Positions 6,510 through 43,253 of a stretch of 63,854 nt of DNA are shown here, piece after piece. A model generated the notes under the pieces. It worked only from the letters and a program-made list of their open reading frames with translations, did not search any database and was not told where the DNA came from. The DNA is from Sphaerochaeta sp. Its GTDB lineage: Bacteria > Spirochaetota > Spirochaetia > Sphaerochaetales > Sphaerochaetaceae. Numbering within the stretch: position 1 is the stretch's first letter; every line of letters begins with the position of its first letter. The translations under genes were made by a program, and so were the position numbers. The stretch covers positions 1 through 63,854 of the forward strand of contig JAEINL010000012.1 in assembly GCA_016342655.1 (NCBI GenBank), given 5' to 3'.

Positions 6510-6936
6510 AATACATACTCCTAATTTGACCATCAATTGATCATAAGTAACAATGCTAATTATATAATACCATACCCTTTTCAAGAGAAAAAAACAAGTT
6601 AAAACGTAAGAGCAGGGACAAATGTATCACTGTACGTTGCTTGTCAGCAATGCCATAAGCATAATCCTACTACCCTGATCCTTGCTCTAGGTATGACAAG
6701 AGACCACCGAGAGGAAAGCCTCGGAATGGAGACGGGGTGTCTGTAATGCGAAAAAAGGAGTCAAAAACCCATGGCTTCTGTCACTCCCTATTTGGAATAC
6801 TTCTAAGGTTTTCCTACACATCTTGTTCTCCCAAGAGCAAGACACCCTCCTTGGGATATCTCTACCAAGAATAGGATCGGGAATAGTTTCGATTCCGCTT
6901 GAAGCAACCCCCTTTATGGCGATACACTCTTGAAGC
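6510..6936. other. intergenic region between divergent genes, no gene seen
   Basis: The left part holds the leader of the barrel gene with a minus-strand TATAAT at 6559-6564 but no well-spaced -35. The remainder has only short unconvincing frames and a small hairpin (CCGAG/CTCGG near 6709-6726). I see no RNA gene or terminator. Confidence 0.4.
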
Positions 6937-31676: not shown

Positions 31677-31760
31677 GCCCAGGTGGCGGAACTGGTAGAC
31701 GCGCTAGGTTCAGGTCCTAGTGACCGAAAGGTTGTGAAAGTTCAAATCTTTTCCTGGGTA
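31677..31760 (+). tRNA. tRNA-Leu (anticodon CAG), prophage integration site
   Basis: Class II tRNA: acceptor GCCCAGG with CCTGGGT, Leu-type D arm (GGTAGACGC), anticodon loop with CAG, a variable arm around GTGACCGAAAGGTTGTG, and T loop TTCAAAT. It is directly followed by a terminator and then an integrase gene, the usual arrangement when a phage integrates into the 3' end of a tRNA and restores it. The 3' ~20 bases are the likely attL core. Confidence 0.92.
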
Positions 31761-31765
31761 TTTAC

Positions 31766-31818
31766 GGCAAACCTTTGATATGCAAGAAATTGCTTGGGGT
31801 TTGCCTTTTTTATTTTTT
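31766..31818 (+). terminator. terminator after tRNA-Leu
   Basis: GGCAAACC pairs perfectly with GGTTTGCC across a 24-base loop that has its own small hairpin, followed by TTTTTTATTTTTT. Confidence 0.8.
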
Positions 31819-31898
31819 CATCTAACCAAGCATTTTTTGGAGCTGTTTTAGTCACTGTGCACAGTTGTGTGCACAGTAAGAATCCAAAGGAGCTGGTT

Positions 31899-33041
31899 AT
31901 GAGAGCAAGAGAACCTTTTACACTCACCAAAAGAAAGATCGGGAAAAAAACTGTCTATTATTATATCGCCTATGATGAAACAGGGCGCAGGAAGAAATTC
32001 TCTACAGGTTGTACTACAAAAACCCAGGCGATGGCATACACCATGGAACTATACAGATCCAATTCATTGATTCCTGAAAAGAAGCAGACCCGACAGGTGA
32101 TCACATTCGGGGACTATTCAAACACGTGGTGGACAGATAAATGCGAATACATCAAAGCCGAGTCCCTTCGTGGCAGGGATCTCTCTGATCAGTACATCAA
32201 GACCAATAGACAGCTTCTGGTGAACCATATTCAACCCACTTTCAATGAGTATGTTCTTTCTGATATTAGCTCAACGATGATTGAGAGTTGGCAACGTTCC
32301 TTACTTGAGAAGAAAACCCTTGCTCCCAAGAGTGCCAACAATATCCTTTCAATTCTATCTGTCATAATGGAAGAAGCCAGACGGGCAAAACTCATCCCTA
32401 TAAATCCTGTAAAGGAAGTCAGGACACTGGCAAAGAAAACCAAAGCCAGAGGTATCCTTTCCCTGGAAGAAGCAAGGGATCTTTTGACCAATATTTCATA
32501 TTGGGATAATCCGGTGGCTTATGCTGCGTCTTTATTGGCTGCATGCACTGGGATGAGACTTGGTGAAATCAGGGCACTACGGCCTTCAGATATAAATGAC
32601 GGATATATTCACATCGAACACAGCGTGGACCTTCAAGGGGCTCTCAAGAGTACAAAGACAGGAGATTCAAGGGACCTTCCCCTACCCCCTCGCTTGATGG
32701 ATATCATTACAGAACTGTGTAAGCATGTTGAAAAATGTGATCGTGTCTTTTCTGTAGCAGGAAGCCCAATGAGCTCAAAAGTGATCAGGAATGCTCTTTA
32801 CCAGGCACTGATTGCCAAAGGTATTACCGAAAAGGAACGACAGGAACGAAACATCACTTTCCACTCATGGCGTCACTTTCTAAATTCTCAGTTGCTCTCC
32901 CACGGGGTGAATGCAGAGAAGACTAGGAAAATTACAGGGCATGCTACAGAATCCATGACTGAACATTACTCGCATTTTCTAGTGGAAGATTTTGCCGATG
33001 TACTACAAATTACGGAAAATATTTTAAAGAATGCAAGATAA
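31899..33041 (+). CDS. int: phage integrase (tyrosine recombinase)
   Basis: 380 aa. An N-terminal Arm-binding beta domain (KRKIGKKTVYYYIAYDETGRRKK) and SAM-like core-binding domain precede the catalytic domain with TGMRLGEIRAL (Arg), HSWRH (HxxR) and GHATESMTEHYSHF (His, Tyr nucleophile). It catalyses integration at the adjacent tRNA-Leu. The ATG at 31899 has AAGGAG seven bases upstream. Confidence 0.95.
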   Translation: MRAREPFTLTKRKIGKKTVYYYIAYDETGRRKKFSTGCTTKTQAMAYTMELYRSNSLIPEKKQTRQVITFGDYSNTWWTDKCEYIKAESLRGRDLSDQYIKTNRQLLVNHIQPTFNEYVLSDISSTMIESWQRSLLEKKTLAPKSANNILSILSVIMEEARRAKLIPINPVKEVRTLAKKTKARGILSLEEARDLLTNISYWDNPVAYAASLLAACTGMRLGEIRALRPSDINDGYIHIEHSVDLQGALKSTKTGDSRDLPLPPRLMDIITELCKHVEKCDRVFSVAGSPMSSKVIRNALYQALIAKGITEKERQERNITFHSWRHFLNSQLLSHGVNAEKTRKITGHATESMTEHYSHFLVEDFADVLQITENILKNAR

Positions 33042-34886: not shown

Positions 34887-36371
34887 CTAATCAAAAAAGT
34901 GTTTATAAAATTCTATAGATTTTATATCGTCATTTTTTATATCACTGATAATTTTCTTTAAAAGTTCCTTTGACTTCAACCTAAGTTCATTCAATTCATA
35001 TACCCCAGCATTTTCTAATTTACAAATATCAAATACTAGAGGATCCATTGGCAATGTTTCGCTATAATACAATGGAGTAATCAGATTCATAAATTCTTCT
35101 GTAAAATTCGGAATCTCAAGCCTTTCCCAATACCCTAAGGCAAGACTACCACCTTGTCCACCAACTGACAGTTTATCTAGGTACCCAGTATCTTTACAAT
35201 ATATTAAATATTGACCAAGGAGAATTGATCTCTTAAGAGAGTAACTTGGAGCCTTTTTGGGACTTACAATTATTCCATGAAAGTTTGTTGTAAAACTCAG
35301 GTGTTTATCACATATGATAAATGTTTTGCCTACTGTCCCTTCTGCAGAGAATAAAATATCTCCAACCCCCAAAAACCAGACAGGATTTCGAGCTCCGATA
35401 TACAATGCTTTTAGCAAATACCCATTATCTGAGATATCGCTAGGATAAACGAGTAAATGGTAGTTTTTAATGTATGAATCAGATTTAATAGACCTTCCTA
35501 AGTCACGTTTTGCTAAGTTGGGACCACGTTTTACTAAATAGCCATATGAATCTAGAGAGTTCTTTCCAAATTTGTAATTTTTCACCTTGAACTCAAATTC
35601 TTCTACAGTTCTCGAGTAGTTTCCTGCATCCAAGCGATTTTGATTCTCAATTATTGAGATTGAAGGTCCCTCGTATTGGTATAAATTCTCTCCAATAGAA
35701 GATTGCATTTCTTTGGAAAACATCTGATTAGCCTTTTCCAATCGCTTTTTAGAAAGTATCTCAGAATACGCGATATTCTTTTGCAAAATCTCAAAATAAG
35801 GTAAAAGAGGGGGGATATTTGGGGATATTTCGGGAAGCATACATCTTAAAAAATTCCTTCCCGCGTGCTTAATTGTTGCTCCCCTAGGTGTAAAAGTCTC
35901 CAATTGTTGTTTAAAGTATTCATCGTTCAAAAATGCTAGACAGTAAAACTTCAGTTCATTTGATTTAAACAGGAGCTTTACAATACCAGAGGAAAATGAA
36001 TAACGGATACGTTGCTCAAAAGCTAGGAACATACAACTATCACCAATATTTGCATCCTTACATAGTAAAACATCCTCATTTTCGAGCATACACGGAAAAT
36101 TCAAATTTGGATTAAGATAAATTTCTTTGCTTTGCTGACTAGTTAGGTTGTAACTATCGATACAGCTATTCCTGATAAAATGATGATCAGACTTTTTTAC
36201 ATAGGAAGAATTTCCAGGTTCAATTCCCTTAATATAATAATCACCGGTTAAAAAGGATTCCAAAGGAAGCTGTTTCTGGTTTCTAATAGTCGAAACCGAG
36301 TAATTACTAGGAGAAAAGGAATTAGTATTAGTAATGTCGTTATATGAAATCTGTTCTGGGAGAATCTTCAT
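34887..36371 (-). CDS. specificity subunit of a restriction-modification system (HsdS-like)
   Basis: 494 aa with two target-recognition-like halves. Each has the S-subunit pattern of aromatic/Gly patches and helical spacers (AYSEILSKKRLEKANQMFSKEMQ is the central coiled-coil spacer; GGQGGSLALGYWERLEIPNF is typical of a domain end). It determines the DNA sequence recognised by the methylase-nuclease gene 12 bases upstream. GAGGTG precedes the ATG. AT-rich codon use separates this pair from the host and late phage genes. No separate HsdR gene is present. Confidence 0.8.
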   Translation of the reverse strand: MKILPEQISYNDITNTNSFSPSNYSVSTIRNQKQLPLESFLTGDYYIKGIEPGNSSYVKKSDHHFIRNSCIDSYNLTSQQSKEIYLNPNLNFPCMLENEDVLLCKDANIGDSCMFLAFEQRIRYSFSSGIVKLLFKSNELKFYCLAFLNDEYFKQQLETFTPRGATIKHAGRNFLRCMLPEISPNIPPLLPYFEILQKNIAYSEILSKKRLEKANQMFSKEMQSSIGENLYQYEGPSISIIENQNRLDAGNYSRTVEEFEFKVKNYKFGKNSLDSYGYLVKRGPNLAKRDLGRSIKSDSYIKNYHLLVYPSDISDNGYLLKALYIGARNPVWFLGVGDILFSAEGTVGKTFIICDKHLSFTTNFHGIIVSPKKAPSYSLKRSILLGQYLIYCKDTGYLDKLSVGGQGGSLALGYWERLEIPNFTEEFMNLITPLYYSETLPMDPLVFDICKLENAGVYELNELRLKSKELLKKIISDIKNDDIKSIEFYKHFFD

Positions 36372-36383
36372 TTGTACTACACC

Positions 36384-38513
36384 TCATTTGCCTAAAAACA
36401 AATCTTTAATTTTCTCTTCCTGGAAAAGACACCATTCTTGAAAATCAATAAATGTTTGGGAAAAGTCTTCGTCTGAAATAGACTCACCATTTTCATCAAT
36501 TAGTGTTTCAAAAGTTTGTTCATCCAATTTATATATTTTAGAAAAATAGACATTTCTTTGGGATGTTCGCTTTTCATACCCCACATTTTGTATTTCCTTA
36601 CAAAACACACGATAGTTGGATTCTTTCAACTTAAGCAATTCACTATCTGTGGGTTTATATCCAACAAATATAGTGGTATTAACTCCTGTTTCTGCAAAAA
36701 TATTACTTGGTAAATCAATTATGGCAACAAGTCTGATTTTTGAGAGTACCCATTTTCTTGCAAATTCGTATGATTTCGTTGACGCAATGCTATTGCTCAA
36801 AATGATTGCGAAACGTCCATTTACTTTCAGTGATCTGATTGTATTTTCAAGAAAGACAATCCCCAAATCCAGACCTGATTTTGGGTTTTCCTTTATATAT
36901 AAATCATAGGTTTCATACAATGCAGCAACTTGAACATCAGCACCCTTAGACAAGTCCAGGCTACGCCCCTTCCCAAATGGAGGATTAGTTAGTATTACAT
37001 CATACTTCATCAATCGTGTTTCATCTGCCCATTTATCCCATTTTCCAGAGTTATGGCTTTCATCTAGTTTCTTGATTTCTCCAATACAGTCTAGTTTCTG
37101 ATCAATAGAACCTTTTCCACCCATATACTTTATTGTTGCATTTCCATCACCATTTAGCAGCATATTAAGTTGCGCCAAAATGGTCATATTATAATCATTA
37201 TCAAACCCATATAGGTTATTATCACTAAGCTTACCATCGGAATTAACATAACTAACCGAAAGAAAATCAGCAATCCCACAACATGGATCGCAAATTGTTT
37301 CATTTCTTTTTGGGTTAATAAGCTTAACTATAAAATCAATAATTGGTAATGGTGTAAGGAATTGTGCATTTTCGTCCTTCTTAAATTTGGTGGCAAAATT
37401 ATAAAAAACCAATTGATATAAATCACTTTTACGTGATCGTGAAAATGAATAATTTTGGAAATGCTTCACTATTTCCGATACAACTCTTATATGTCTCGAA
37501 TTTTTCCAATTTATCTTATTTTCATAAAGCAAATTTCTATATCTTGTTTGTGCAGAATTAAAAAGCTGTTTCATTCTTTCAATGAATTTTTGAATCGACT
37601 TTTCGGAAAGTTCCTTGAATTGATACTCAGAATCAATGATATAAAAAGATAAGGAATTTCCATATTGTATCGATTCCTTTTCGTCATGGATTTTCAGAGC
37701 AATCATTTGAATTAGTATTAAGTAACCTTCTTCATTAAATAAACTTAATGAATCTAGAGTCTTCAATATCTGATTGAGTGAATTCTTAACACTCTCATCA
37801 TTCATTCTGTAGATAATATCTAAGTTCTCTACTAATCTATTCTCAATTATTAGTTGGTCTTTGTTTTCATCCAGCTTCTTCAATTGCTCAATCGATGGAA
37901 TTAAAAAATACGGATCAGTAATTTCTAATTGATATTGTTCGAGAATTCTTTGACTAGTAGTGAAATTCTTCGAATTATCAAGCCTAACAATTTTACCCGA
38001 TTCTTTTTTGAACAAAAACAATCGTTCCTTGTCATAATAAACACCAATAGTGACTTTCGCATCAGATTCATTGATAGTAGCTCGTATTTGGGAATTAAAA
38101 ATCTGCTCAATCTTTGAATCATTTCCATCACGCTTAAATTCTATCATCATTACAGCAAGTTTTCTAAGTTCAGAAAGCGCTACCTGATCCTTATTCTCTC
38201 TGTATTTTAAATATAAAGATACCCACTCTGTAGTTTTAAATACAACTGCATCAATCTTTATTGGCGTAGAATCTTTATTACCTTTGGGGAAGTAAATCTC
38301 ACAACCAATATAATCTCTACCAATCAATCCTGAATTTATGAGCGAATATATGAATTGCCATTTATAATATTCTTCATTATGACTATTAGTTCTGTCAACA
38401 AGAGAGATATTATCGATAAACTTCCCATTAACTGTTACGATTGACCTAGATAATACTTTTCTATCTTTGAACTTAGTATCAAAATCTGCTTTTGCCTGAG
38501 AAAAACTTTCCAT
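36384..38513 (-). CDS. fused restriction nuclease / N6-adenine DNA methylase
   Basis: 709 aa. The N-terminal ~170 residues resemble the HsdR N-terminal nuclease fold, with Glu72, Asp88 (KIDAVVF) and E125-F-K127 (MMIEFKRDG) forming a PD-(D/E)xK pattern. A helical connector follows. The HsdM-like methylase then has QFLTPLPI near 385, motif I DPCCGIADFL at 409-418 and motif IV NPPFGKG at 510-516. With the separate specificity subunit this is the BcgI-like (type IIB/IIG) arrangement: cutting and methylation in one chain. It starts a two-gene unit downstream of, and on the same strand as, the phage repressor. Nuclease activity is inferred from motifs only. Confidence 0.8.
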   Translation of the reverse strand: MESFSQAKADFDTKFKDRKVLSRSIVTVNGKFIDNISLVDRTNSHNEEYYKWQFIYSLINSGLIGRDYIGCEIYFPKGNKDSTPIKIDAVVFKTTEWVSLYLKYRENKDQVALSELRKLAVMMIEFKRDGNDSKIEQIFNSQIRATINESDAKVTIGVYYDKERLFLFKKESGKIVRLDNSKNFTTSQRILEQYQLEITDPYFLIPSIEQLKKLDENKDQLIIENRLVENLDIIYRMNDESVKNSLNQILKTLDSLSLFNEEGYLILIQMIALKIHDEKESIQYGNSLSFYIIDSEYQFKELSEKSIQKFIERMKQLFNSAQTRYRNLLYENKINWKNSRHIRVVSEIVKHFQNYSFSRSRKSDLYQLVFYNFATKFKKDENAQFLTPLPIIDFIVKLINPKRNETICDPCCGIADFLSVSYVNSDGKLSDNNLYGFDNDYNMTILAQLNMLLNGDGNATIKYMGGKGSIDQKLDCIGEIKKLDESHNSGKWDKWADETRLMKYDVILTNPPFGKGRSLDLSKGADVQVAALYETYDLYIKENPKSGLDLGIVFLENTIRSLKVNGRFAIILSNSIASTKSYEFARKWVLSKIRLVAIIDLPSNIFAETGVNTTIFVGYKPTDSELLKLKESNYRVFCKEIQNVGYEKRTSQRNVYFSKIYKLDEQTFETLIDENGESISDEDFSQTFIDFQEWCLFQEEKIKDLFLGK

Positions 38514-41472: not shown

Positions 41473-41655
41473 ATTCTTTATCTCCTTTTCGTATTTGACT
41501 GCTTCCTCGTGGTAACACAATTTGTAGCGAAAAGCAAATAAAAAAGAGTATGGGACATGAATAAAGCGACGGGGGGGTACTCCTCCTCCTTGATGACCGG
41601 ACGGCTTCCGGGAGATCGCGAAACAGCCCTGGGCTACACAGTCGAGTAGCAGACC

Positions 41656-41727
41656 GGGTCCGTAAGCAATGGTAGCGCGGGGTGATCCAAAGCACCCCGA
41701 ATGCAGGTTCGAATCCTGTCGGGTCCA
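41656..41727 (+). tRNA. phage tRNA, Trp-like (CCA), with abnormal anticodon loop
   Basis: Acceptor GGGTCCG pairs with CGGGTCC (two G-U). T arm GCAGG-TTCGAAT-CCTGT is good and the D loop AATGGTA is normal, but the D stem is only two to three pairs. The anticodon stem GGGGTG/CACCCC closes an eight-base loop, ATCCAAAG, instead of seven. If T is position 33 the anticodon is CCA (Trp). Total length is 72 bases without CCA end. Tentative, because standard models would score this structure poorly. Confidence 0.5.
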
Positions 41728-41791
41728 ATGGGAAGGGTATATTACCCGGATAAATACACATGGGAAAACCTATGATCAAGGAAGGATTTTA

Positions 41792-42196
41792 ATGATTACT
41801 GTTCAAGCATTGGATAATCTTCAACAAACGGCTCCGGAGACAAAACTCGTTTCTTTACACACGACTTTTAGTGGTTTCTGTTCAATCGGAATAGAACCTC
41901 CGAAAGACATCATCGATTATTTCAGACAGTTTCTATTAAAAGCCAGAGAGTACACGGATGGAAGAGAGTGCTCTGTCGAACTTATTCCCGGAGGCCGACT
42001 AGTCATCAGTTTGGTACTTCCTGATCGAGTTTATCGTATTTCTCCTGATACCACAGCCCAGGATTGCGTTACGGAATCTAAGCCAAAGTTTCAGGAGATT
42101 ATCAACGACGCAGCAGGCCATGAGAAAGTGGTTTTTACTGTTCAGCCGGTTCAACCATCTCAGGAAGGGTGTAAGGAAGTACTCCAATCACCTTGA
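41792..42196 (+). CDS. unknown early phage protein
   Basis: 134 aa, beta-rich with a HTTFSGFCSIGIEPPKDIIDYFRQFL segment. AAGGA precedes the ATG at 41792. Its last 62 bases overlap the opposite-strand zinc-ribbon gene 42135-42398. Family not recognised. Confidence 0.65.
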   Translation: MITVQALDNLQQTAPETKLVSLHTTFSGFCSIGIEPPKDIIDYFRQFLLKAREYTDGRECSVELIPGGRLVISLVLPDRVYRISPDTTAQDCVTESKPKFQEIINDAAGHEKVVFTVQPVQPSQEGCKEVLQSP

Positions 42197-42398
42197 GACA
42201 ATCCCTGCAGACAATAGCTGTGAAGTTGGTGTACCTTCCATCATTTGCCGTTTGGATCTCCCACTCACCAAGTTTGTCTTTTTGCCATTTTGTTATGTGG
42301 TCAGCAGAGTAATTGACTGTCACAGGTTCGAGGAAATTCCCACAGTGGGGACACATCACAGCATCGCAGAAGAAGAGACCTTTAGTTTGTTTTTGCAT
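42135..42398 (-). CDS. zinc-ribbon protein, antisense to its neighbour
   Basis: 87 aa with CPHC near the N-terminus and CRDC about 50 residues later; the CPHC-(x4)-EP spacing and a C-terminal aliphatic-Val-x-C-x-x-C-x-x-Val-Ile segment match the 57-aa protein at 41299-41472, so the two are paralogues. The ATG at 42398 has AAGGA seven bases upstream. Confidence 0.65.
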   Translation of the reverse strand: MQKQTKGLFFCDAVMCPHCGNFLEPVTVNYSADHITKWQKDKLGEWEIQTANDGRYTNFTAIVCRDCLKVIGVLPYTLPEMVEPAEQ

Positions 42399-42517
42399 CA
42401 ATTTTCCTTCGGCCAGTTAGGCCTTGTTACAAGTTACGCAGAGCATACCACAAGTCGAAGGAAGATTTAACGGGTATTTGAAAAAGGGTCTGCTGCCCCT
42501 TGAAGCAGTAGATTACC

Positions 42518-42645
42518 GGGACTGTGGTGGAAGCTAGGGAGGAACTCTAGTTTGGCAGACACAGATACAAATCTCCTTAACCAGCAGGAGCTAACGGTTT
42601 CCGGGTGGACGCACCCATGCAGGGTTCGAATCCCTGCCAGTCCCA
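42518..42645 (+). tRNA. tRNA-Leu-like gene with extra hairpins
   Basis: 128 bases. Acceptor GGGACTG pairs perfectly with CAGTCCC. The T arm GCAGGG-TTCGAAT-CCCTGC is perfect and a variable-arm hairpin GGGTG/CACCC is present. The D stem GTG/CAC and the loop residues GGAA...TTGGCAGA are Leu-type, but an 18-base hairpin (CTAGGG/CTCTAG) is inserted in the D loop. The anticodon domain is also longer than normal (stem CTCCT/AGGAG with an eight-base loop plus extra flanking bases). I cannot assign an anticodon. It could be a tRNA with insertions, a tRNA mimic or a decayed gene. Confidence 0.4.
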
Positions 42646-42672
42646 TAGCCAGAAATGGTACAAGTCGGGAGC

Positions 42673-42707
42673 GTCCGATCCTTAGCCTGAGCGGGGTCGG
42701 ACATTTT
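42673..42707 (+). terminator. hairpin between the phage tRNA genes
   Basis: GTCCGATCC pairs with GGGGTCGGAC (one G-U, one bulge) across an eleven-base loop and is followed by ATTTT, just before tRNA-Ser. It could be a weak terminator or an RNA-processing signal. Confidence 0.4.
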
Positions 42708-42791
42708 GGAGAGTTGGCCGAGTGGTCGAAGGCACCCGTCCTGAAAACGGGAGGGCGAACAGCCCCGAGGGTTCGAATCCCCCACTCTCCG
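42708..42791 (+). tRNA. phage tRNA-Ser (anticodon TGA) with C33
   Basis: Complete class II cloverleaf: acceptor GGAGAGT/ACTCTCC, Ser-type D arm (GCCGAGTGGTCGAAGGC), anticodon stem CCCGT/ACGGG, variable arm GGGC/GCCC, T loop TTCGAAT, discriminator G as in bacterial tRNA-Ser. The loop is CCTGAAA: position 33 is C instead of the nearly invariant T. Confidence 0.88.
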
Positions 42792-42812
42792 TTGATCAAT
42801 AAAGGAGGAGCA

Positions 42813-43253
42813 ATGAAAGACATCAATATCGTATCCATGACAGGGAGGCTAACCCGGGAGATTGAGATCAAGTACACCAAGGGGGGGACGCCAGTAGGGA
42901 AATTCTTCCTGGCAGTCAACAGAAACAAGAAACGGGGTGACAAGTGGGAGGATGAGGCGTCGTTCTTTGAATGCGCATATTTTGGAAAGGCTGCTGAAGG
43001 CCTTGCACAGTACCTTGTAAAGGGAAAGCAAGTCGGCATCTCTGGTGAAATGCGTCAGGAGAGATGGATCCAAGATGAACAAAACCATAGCCGAGTGGTC
43101 GTGATTGTTACCACCCTATCCCTGATGGGTTCCAAGGATGAGAACCAGAACAGGCCGAGCAACAATACCAGCAGGCCGCCACAACAGACACGATCAAACC
43201 CACCCCAGACTACCCAGGGACCGGAGTACTTCGATGATGACATTCCGTTCTAA
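42813..43253 (+). CDS. ssb: single-stranded DNA-binding protein
   Basis: 146 aa. The OB fold is evident (MTGRLTREIEIKYTKGGTPVGKFFLAVNR, FFECAYFGKAAEGLAQYLVKGKQVGISGE), with a Gln/Asn/Pro-rich linker and the acidic DDDIPF tip that recruits replication partners. AAGGAGGAG precedes the ATG. It is the first gene of the replication module. Confidence 0.95.
   Translation: MKDINIVSMTGRLTREIEIKYTKGGTPVGKFFLAVNRNKKRGDKWEDEASFFECAYFGKAAEGLAQYLVKGKQVGISGEMRQERWIQDEQNHSRVVVIVTTLSLMGSKDENQNRPSNNTSRPPQQTRSNPPQTTQGPEYFDDDIPF

Follow-up and report, generated by a model that had tools for sequence, protein, structure and literature searches.

The stretch of DNA analysed here, which we call the window, comprises 63,854 nucleotides (nt) of contig JAEINL010000012.1 from a Sphaerochaeta sp. 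genome (3.9 Mb in 161 contigs, contamination estimate 5.94%) and contains a prophage with three tRNA-like genes, all on the plus strand. These are an alanine-type gene, called Trp-like in an earlier note on this DNA (41656-41727), a leucine-type RNA of 128 nt (42518-42645) and a tRNA-Ser(TGA) with C33 (42708-42791), which ends 21 nt 5' of ssb (42813-43253, plus strand, PHROG 44), the gene directly 3' of the cluster. The earlier note had held that all three deviate at the anticodon and could thereby escape anticodon nucleases or read shifted or unusual codons. The deviation itself was confirmed in each case, as an 8-nt loop, a C33 and a replaced domain, respectively. The cluster genes possess the acceptor, D and T arms of a canonical elongator tRNA, and the combination of a 5-bp anticodon stem, a 7-nt loop and U33 is found in none of the three.

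Three tRNA-like genes altered at the anticodon

ARAGORN returned an 8-nt anticodon loop with 'CCAA' and an ambiguous identity for the Trp-like gene, in agreement with the eight-base loop described before. The loop, ATCCAAAG (41685-41692), is closed by the stem GGGTG/CACCC, which extends to 7 bp when folded. The acceptor, D and T arms are all present with a D-stem of only 2 bp, and the Rfam tRNA model scores the gene at 30.4 bits, barely above its cut-off of 29. A letter-for-letter identical copy lies in a second prophage on another contig of the same assembly (L007:5705-5776), and a homologue stands immediately before ssb in a viral contig (L009:1857-1928), where the loop reads ATTCTAAG instead of ATCCAAAG; it differs at three bases, two in the anticodon loop and one in the D-loop, and at none in the stems. 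In side-by-side sequences of the three prophages, the leader immediately 5' of the gene (41592-41655, plus strand) is near-invariant, and homology ends within 1 nt of the gene's 3' end. The Trp label is doubtful, as A73, G1-C72 and G3-U70 depart from the bacterial Trp set (G73, A1-U72, G2-C71, G3-C70 and anticodon CCA; PMC9976931), of which only G2-C71 and the letters CCA are present. Three of the five bacterial Ala determinants given in the same source (A73, G2-C71, G3-U70, G4-C69 and G20) are found, namely the first three.

Decoding of shifted or unusual codons gained no support. Frameshift sites were sought within the final 150 nt of longer frames, where a shift would lead into a long +1 frame, and reading by CCAA (UUGG) or UCUA (UAGA) was rejected for want of a fitting site, with no in-frame UUGG in the window or L007 and no UAGA in L009. 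Averaged over all 256 quadruplets, such sites numbered 5.1 in the window, 0.3 in L007 and 0.4 in L009; because the last two are so low, the zero carries weight for the window only.

In tRNA-Ser(TGA), recognised by ARAGORN, by Rfam and by comparison with relatives, the C33 previously reported lies at 42741 within the loop CCTGAAA. T33 occurs in all 11 Ser(TGA) genes read from genus relatives (loop CTTGAAA), in all five phage Ser(TGA) relatives read out of 12 matches and in all 27 host tRNAs read out of 43 matches; an encoded CCA was not apparent by eye in any of these 27. The whole listed seryl-tRNA synthetase set (G73, C72, G2-C71, R4-Y69, C11-G24, a long variable arm and G30-C40) could be read from the sequence and the ARAGORN fold. 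The window gene as query found no further match in its own assembly, perhaps owing to an assembly gap, and 14 of 18 genus relatives have one to four.

The Leu-type element has an acceptor stem paired at 7 of 7 positions (42518-42524 with 42638-42644), A73 at 42645, U48 at 42618 and a T-arm with a 6-bp stem (42619-42637). Its anticodon domain, noted before as altered, has been replaced altogether by a variable core (42561-42617) with no recognisable anticodon arm, and the D-loop holds an 18-nt insert (42533-42550), for which a small hairpin is possible from the letters and absent from the minimum-energy fold. ARAGORN made no call on the element and neither did the Rfam tRNA model at E<=5, while Rfam families other than tRNA gave no gathering-score match for the elements scanned. 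The letters used by leucyl-tRNA synthetase (LeuRS) are present, i.e., A73, A15-U48, G18G19 and A20a, with positions 15 to 20a numbered by eye across the D-loop insert. A hairpin near 42602-42615 in the core might serve as a variable region, a placement that no alignment fixes. An open frame at 42552-43253 (plus strand) runs from this element through the Ser gene into ssb; it is probably spurious, because the listed ssb frame of L007 begins at 6627.

The second prophage, L007, carries a 93-nt Leu-like element directly before its own ssb, with an identical acceptor and a near-identical T-arm. When the two were aligned, the 60-nt leader, the 5' acceptor and the T-arm were each matched by 0 of 300 shuffles, and the cores were unrelated (216 of 300 shuffles scored as well). 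A hairpin in the leader (42490-42511, plus strand) is kept in L007 and appears in both folds. The resemblance of the two top halves is thus beyond chance. Given the contamination estimate, the L007 contig might derive from a near relative.

A Leu-type class in viral contigs

By its sequence, the Leu-like element is a member of a phage class that is widespread and joins a Leu-type tRNA top half to a replaced, highly variable anticodon domain. Elements of this class keep the top half with U48 and A73, nearly always lack an anticodon arm, have unrelated cores and lie mostly outside open reading frames (ORFs). They were collected from IMG/VR with a pattern that placed a T-arm 44-74 nt from a Leu-type D-loop and did not require acceptor pairing; all counts refer to the matches listed (at least 120 contigs for the first pattern and 9 for the second). 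The pattern occurs at 132 places in 128 of 129 loci, L243 being outside the gap range, and the acceptor pairs at 7/7 positions in 107 places and at 6/7 in 20. The 107 perfect acceptors represent 103 distinct elements, of which 16 with a normal GTT anticodon arm were set aside and 87 kept. U48 is present in 81 of the 87, A73 in 71 and both in 66, as they are in all six window-type elements (window, L007, L008, L010, L025 and L028). Type I scaffolds gathered by the same search method have C48 in 68/76 and A73 in 41/76, and Ser scaffolds have C48 in 8/8; therefore base 48 tracks the D-arm, as a Levitt pair should. The D-stem is GCG/CGC in 67 of the 85 elements read, and a few of the others are still paired, with combinations such as GTG/CAC, ACG/CGT, CTG/CAG and TCG/CGA. 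CCA is encoded by 13 of the 87.

An anticodon arm at the exact place was found in only 2 of the 87 elements (shuffled mean 0.2, range 0-1), compared with 16 of 16 in the GTT group, and under looser rules the Leu-type counts fall inside the shuffle range. Among 33 elements with the acceptor AGTCAGG, the two ends are 93% and 90% identical, and related-looking cores occur in 3 of 400 sampled pairs. Only one of 56 elements with 1.5-kb flanks lies inside a same-strand ORF, compared with 129 of 560 random places. ARAGORN passed over 73 of the 87 and labelled the other 14 as a named or an uncertain tRNA; it found no tRNA or transfer-messenger RNA (tmRNA) at all in 11 of 20 Leu-type loci scanned.

An intron in the Leu-type cores was rejected, as removal of one segment restored an arm in 1 of 90 elements (shuffled mean 0.85), a test made with fixed geometry on the viral set (the 103 less 13 with TCTGGGG), outside which the window element stands. 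No clear core motif emerged from these 90, the best 6-mer being TAAAAA (11/90, against 7-9 in five shuffles). Phage BLAST searches yielded no hit with both scaffold ends at Leu-type spacing in the best 40 of 874 rows and, in another search, chance core matches among the 40 rows listed.

Several observations concern the other scaffolds. The sixteen GTT elements (L124, L128, L148, L156, L173 and others) have the acceptors TCTGGGG, TCTAGGG, TTTGGGG or TTTAGGG, together with G73, a 5-bp/7-nt arm and an unusually long variable region. In fourteen type I scaffolds (L269, L278, L280, L282, L283, L291, L297, L300, L304, L308, L315, L318, L327 and L346) a similar core (about CTCATGGTGAAGGACCAAATGCC...) replaces the anticodon arm. 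Inserts of about 40-48 nt break up the anticodon stem on its 5' strand in phage tRNAs of L250 (+), L263 (+), L270 (-) and L289 (-), and likewise in L292 (-), L295 (+), L320 (-), L326 (+) and other viral contigs. When one segment is removed, 23 of 76 type I cores regain a canonical arm (shuffled mean 0.88). Not all of the 23 carry an insert, L275 and L334 at least being tandem tRNAs; in 11 of the 23, CAGCA or CAGCG follows a hairpin. It is possible that the anticodon-stem inserts are short tRNA introns of an unfamiliar kind.

Relatives and minihelices in spirochaete prophages

The window prophage starts next to a tRNA-Leu(CAG) called by ARAGORN (31677-31760, plus strand), the probable attachment site to judge from its position beside the integrase (31794-33041). 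The integrase is followed by a repressor, a DNA methyltransferase, ssb, NinG, terminase, portal and capsid genes, and relatives of the NinG are found in Spirochaetales and Sphaerochaetaceae records. Near the integrase, an AT-rich region (34887-38513, minus strand) encodes an N6-type DNA methylase adjoining a protein like a type I specificity subunit.

A pattern searched across the taxonomic class occurs at 28 places in 26 of 394 genomes, including the window, L007, L008/L016, L025 and L028; eight loci with remaining matches were scanned and a paired acceptor was found in none, and the others were judged ordinary tRNAs from their letters. The Rfam tRNA model scores L010 at 44.6 bits and L028 at 41.5 bits. 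In 301 kb of related loci there are 29 T-arms (0-2 in 20 mononucleotide shuffles, 1 in reversed sequence), a count that includes ordinary tRNAs as well as both L008 and L016, which are nearly identical, and from which L001-L006 and L015 were left out as duplicates or short pieces. The same loci hold 7 minihelices, 6 of them distinct (0 in the 20 shuffles, 1 in reversed sequence). These minihelices of 39-50 nt, which consist of an acceptor and a T-arm only, occur alongside oversize elements in L008, L025 and L028, and the C element of L008 pairs at 12 of 12 positions.

Double changes were seen at 6 of 13 pairs among four sequences of set A and at 2 of 12 pairs among five sequences of set B, the latter equalled by 47 of 500 shuffles. 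The covarying minihelices of 46-48 nt are L017:12048-12093 (-), L018:3393-3438 (+), L019:3192-3239 (+), L020:3330-3375 (+) and L098:1501-1546 (-); those of L018, L019 and L020 lie 8-11 nt past the stop of a frame of 190-215 amino acids, and that of L017 lies 9 nt past the stop of a 67-amino-acid frame. Shorter ones of 40-41 nt (L018:9133-9172, L020:8234-8274 and L013:2546-2585, all +) open on the stop codon of the preceding gene, and 61-62 nt separate their ends from the next start. The minihelix model R3 recovered L019, which was outside its training set, at 32.9 bits, and its many 22.8-bit matches at positions 5-41 are assumed to be host tRNAs. In the window the minihelix models found no convincing member, the best match (13.2 bits) lying inside the ordinary tRNA-Leu. 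Two further structures were noted in passing: a 68-nt cloverleaf-like element in L019 (7390-7457, +), with a hairpin with a 3-nt loop at the anticodon place, and an odd type II tRNA in the host assembly (L065:53-140, +), whose acceptor is mismatched and whose anticodon was read as GAT.

Proposed charging and processing, and alternative roles

We favour, at somewhat less than even confidence, the interpretation that the cluster encodes processed and chargeable tRNA-derived RNAs with little or no ability to decode. What is kept, i.e., the acceptor stem, T-arm, D-arm, elbow and discriminator base, would be what processing enzymes and synthetases recognise, and what is altered or lost would be what the ribosome recognises. 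The elements would be transcribed within the operon; host RNase P and 3' enzymes would cut them out, CCA would be added, and synthetases for which the anticodon matters little or not at all would charge them with leucine, alanine and serine. The Ala- and Ser-type RNAs would then decode poorly and the Leu-type not at all, and their role could be that of decoys or of acceptors for factors that bind a charged top half.

PMC9976931 names A73, A15-U48, G18G19 and A20a as the leucine identity of E. coli, with the anticodon and variable arm dispensable, and reports that E. coli tRNALeu without an anticodon arm is still charged by LeuRS, while LeuRS editing requires that arm. Its table gives no anticodon determinant for bacterial Ala and Leu and only G30-C40 for Ser. 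By these published determinants, the three deviant genes look alanine- (three of five), leucine- and serine-type, and in all three families charging depends little or not at all on the anticodon.

Several points weigh against this interpretation. In the same table, contrary to the text of the source, a large variable region is entered for bacterial Leu, and the Ala, Leu and Ser types were assigned after the sequences had been seen and by E. coli rules rather than those of the spirochaete enzymes. The Ala-type gene has U4-G69 in place of G4-C69 and, in our own numbering, T rather than G at position 20, while the Ser gene is normal apart from one base and may simply decode. The window Leu-like element bears its D-loop insert besides the replaced anticodon domain, and three of 22 elements lie in an open frame (the Ser gene, L008 C and L028 Met). 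In the viral set, the 2 of 87 arms exceed the shuffled range, so a few elements may be true tRNAs; A14/A15, G18G19 and A20a were built into the search pattern and 7/7 acceptors were selected for, so that independent evidence comes from U48, A73 and the D-stem; and elements of related phages are non-independent events, counted among the listed matches.

The main rival, above all for the minihelices, holds that the elements are processing marks, cut by RNase P and RNase Z between operon genes, for which the acceptor and T-arm alone matter and the remainder drifts. We regard it as rather less probable, although the covarying minihelices of related prophages, without D- or anticodon arm and placed between genes on the operon strand, speak for it, and in 14 of 22 cases an element ends 9-64 nt ahead of the next called start, the step from the Ser gene to ssb being 21 nt by sequence. 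RNase P is reported to cut, besides some mRNAs and the phage RNAs M3 and C4, model substrates made of an acceptor and a T-arm (PMC11143913), and phage-induced regulatory RNAs are mentioned in this context (PMC4919922). The minihelices have exactly the make-up of such model substrates; they differ in being natural and intergenic. Processing marks leave the conserved D-arm, U48 and A73 of the Leu-type class unexplained, and in the viral set the gaps to the next start spread from 13 to 3740 nt.

A regulatory RNA, in which the variable core would be active and the constant tRNA-like scaffold would carry and stabilise it, as a C4-like antisense RNA or a stable RNA like T4 species 1, seems to us unlikely. 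Constant ends with unrelated cores would suit it, as would T4 rnaC, an annotated small stable RNA of 139 nt with a perfect T-arm. In five elements tested, no antisense match exceeded the expected length, and the Leu-type set has no clear core motif.

The earlier note had read the cluster as decoding tRNAs whose loops are altered against host anticodon nucleases, an explanation of still lower probability for the cluster as a whole. C33 and the 8-nt loop do sit where such nucleases cut, loop changes in phage tRNAs have been predicted as escape (PMC10264068), and for the Ser gene with C33 this is possible. The departure of all three genes at the anticodon and the view of the Leu-like element as more than decay have stood, but not its part as a nuclease-proof replacement decoder, which is ruled out for the class because nearly all its members are without an anticodon arm, and removal of a segment brings one back in 1 of 90. 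The phage tRNAs of PMC10264068 are likewise altered at the anticodon loop, and the accessible part of that paper does not mention loss of the arm.

Functionless remains of tRNA genes or attachment sites are very improbable: low (Ala-type) or absent (Leu-type) Rfam scores in the window, the abrupt end of prophage homology at the 3' end of the Ala-type gene, T-arm fragments in related loci that match by eye the 3' half of host tRNA-Leu(GAG) and the caution that integration leaves tRNA fragments (PMC9897764) would agree with decay, but the elements own a 5' acceptor partner, mostly a perfect one, retain U48, A73 and the D-stem, show compensatory changes and, in L010 and L028, score well with the Rfam tRNA model. 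Attachment-site fragments fit only the T-arms that copy the tRNA-Leu(GAG) 3' half in L008, L016 and L019, again by eye.

Further known systems stand close to the Leu-type elements. The tRNA-like domain of tmRNA is a charged tRNA top half without an anticodon. The lack of an anticodon in tmRNA is also stated in PMC2481249; the Leu-type elements are far shorter, with no tag-coding part seen and no tmRNA call by ARAGORN. The minimal E. coli tRNALeu (Larkin et al. 2002, cited in PMC9976931) has the same acceptor, D and T arms, A73 and elbow contacts and is charged without the arm, but these are laboratory truncations, whereas the Leu-type elements are natural phage genes with long variable cores. 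The T4 species 1 RNA (rnaC, L054:1409-1547, -) resembles them in being oversize and part of a phage tRNA cluster, and it is a stable RNA. The partner of its acceptor is uncertain, since an internal 7/7 match exists where chance alone would yield about 0.16 (an estimate). In the literature searched, which covered few subscription papers, we found no matching earlier description of the Leu-type class or of the short tRNA inserts. The window element appears to be a single example of a phage RNA form that is widespread.

The Leu-type genes are easily missed or mislabelled, as the silence of ARAGORN on most of them indicates. It is conceivable, though we hold this wider claim only tentatively, that phages of many sorts encode unrecognised leucine-chargeable, non-decoding RNAs, with a constant tRNALeu top half and a fast-changing payload where the anticodon arm would be, that act as aminoacyl-RNA decoys or donors during infection. 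If the RNAs are made and charged, phage tRNA genes would not serve solely for codon supply or escape from nucleases, and the role of odd phage tRNA-like RNAs, such as T4 species 1, would become testable.
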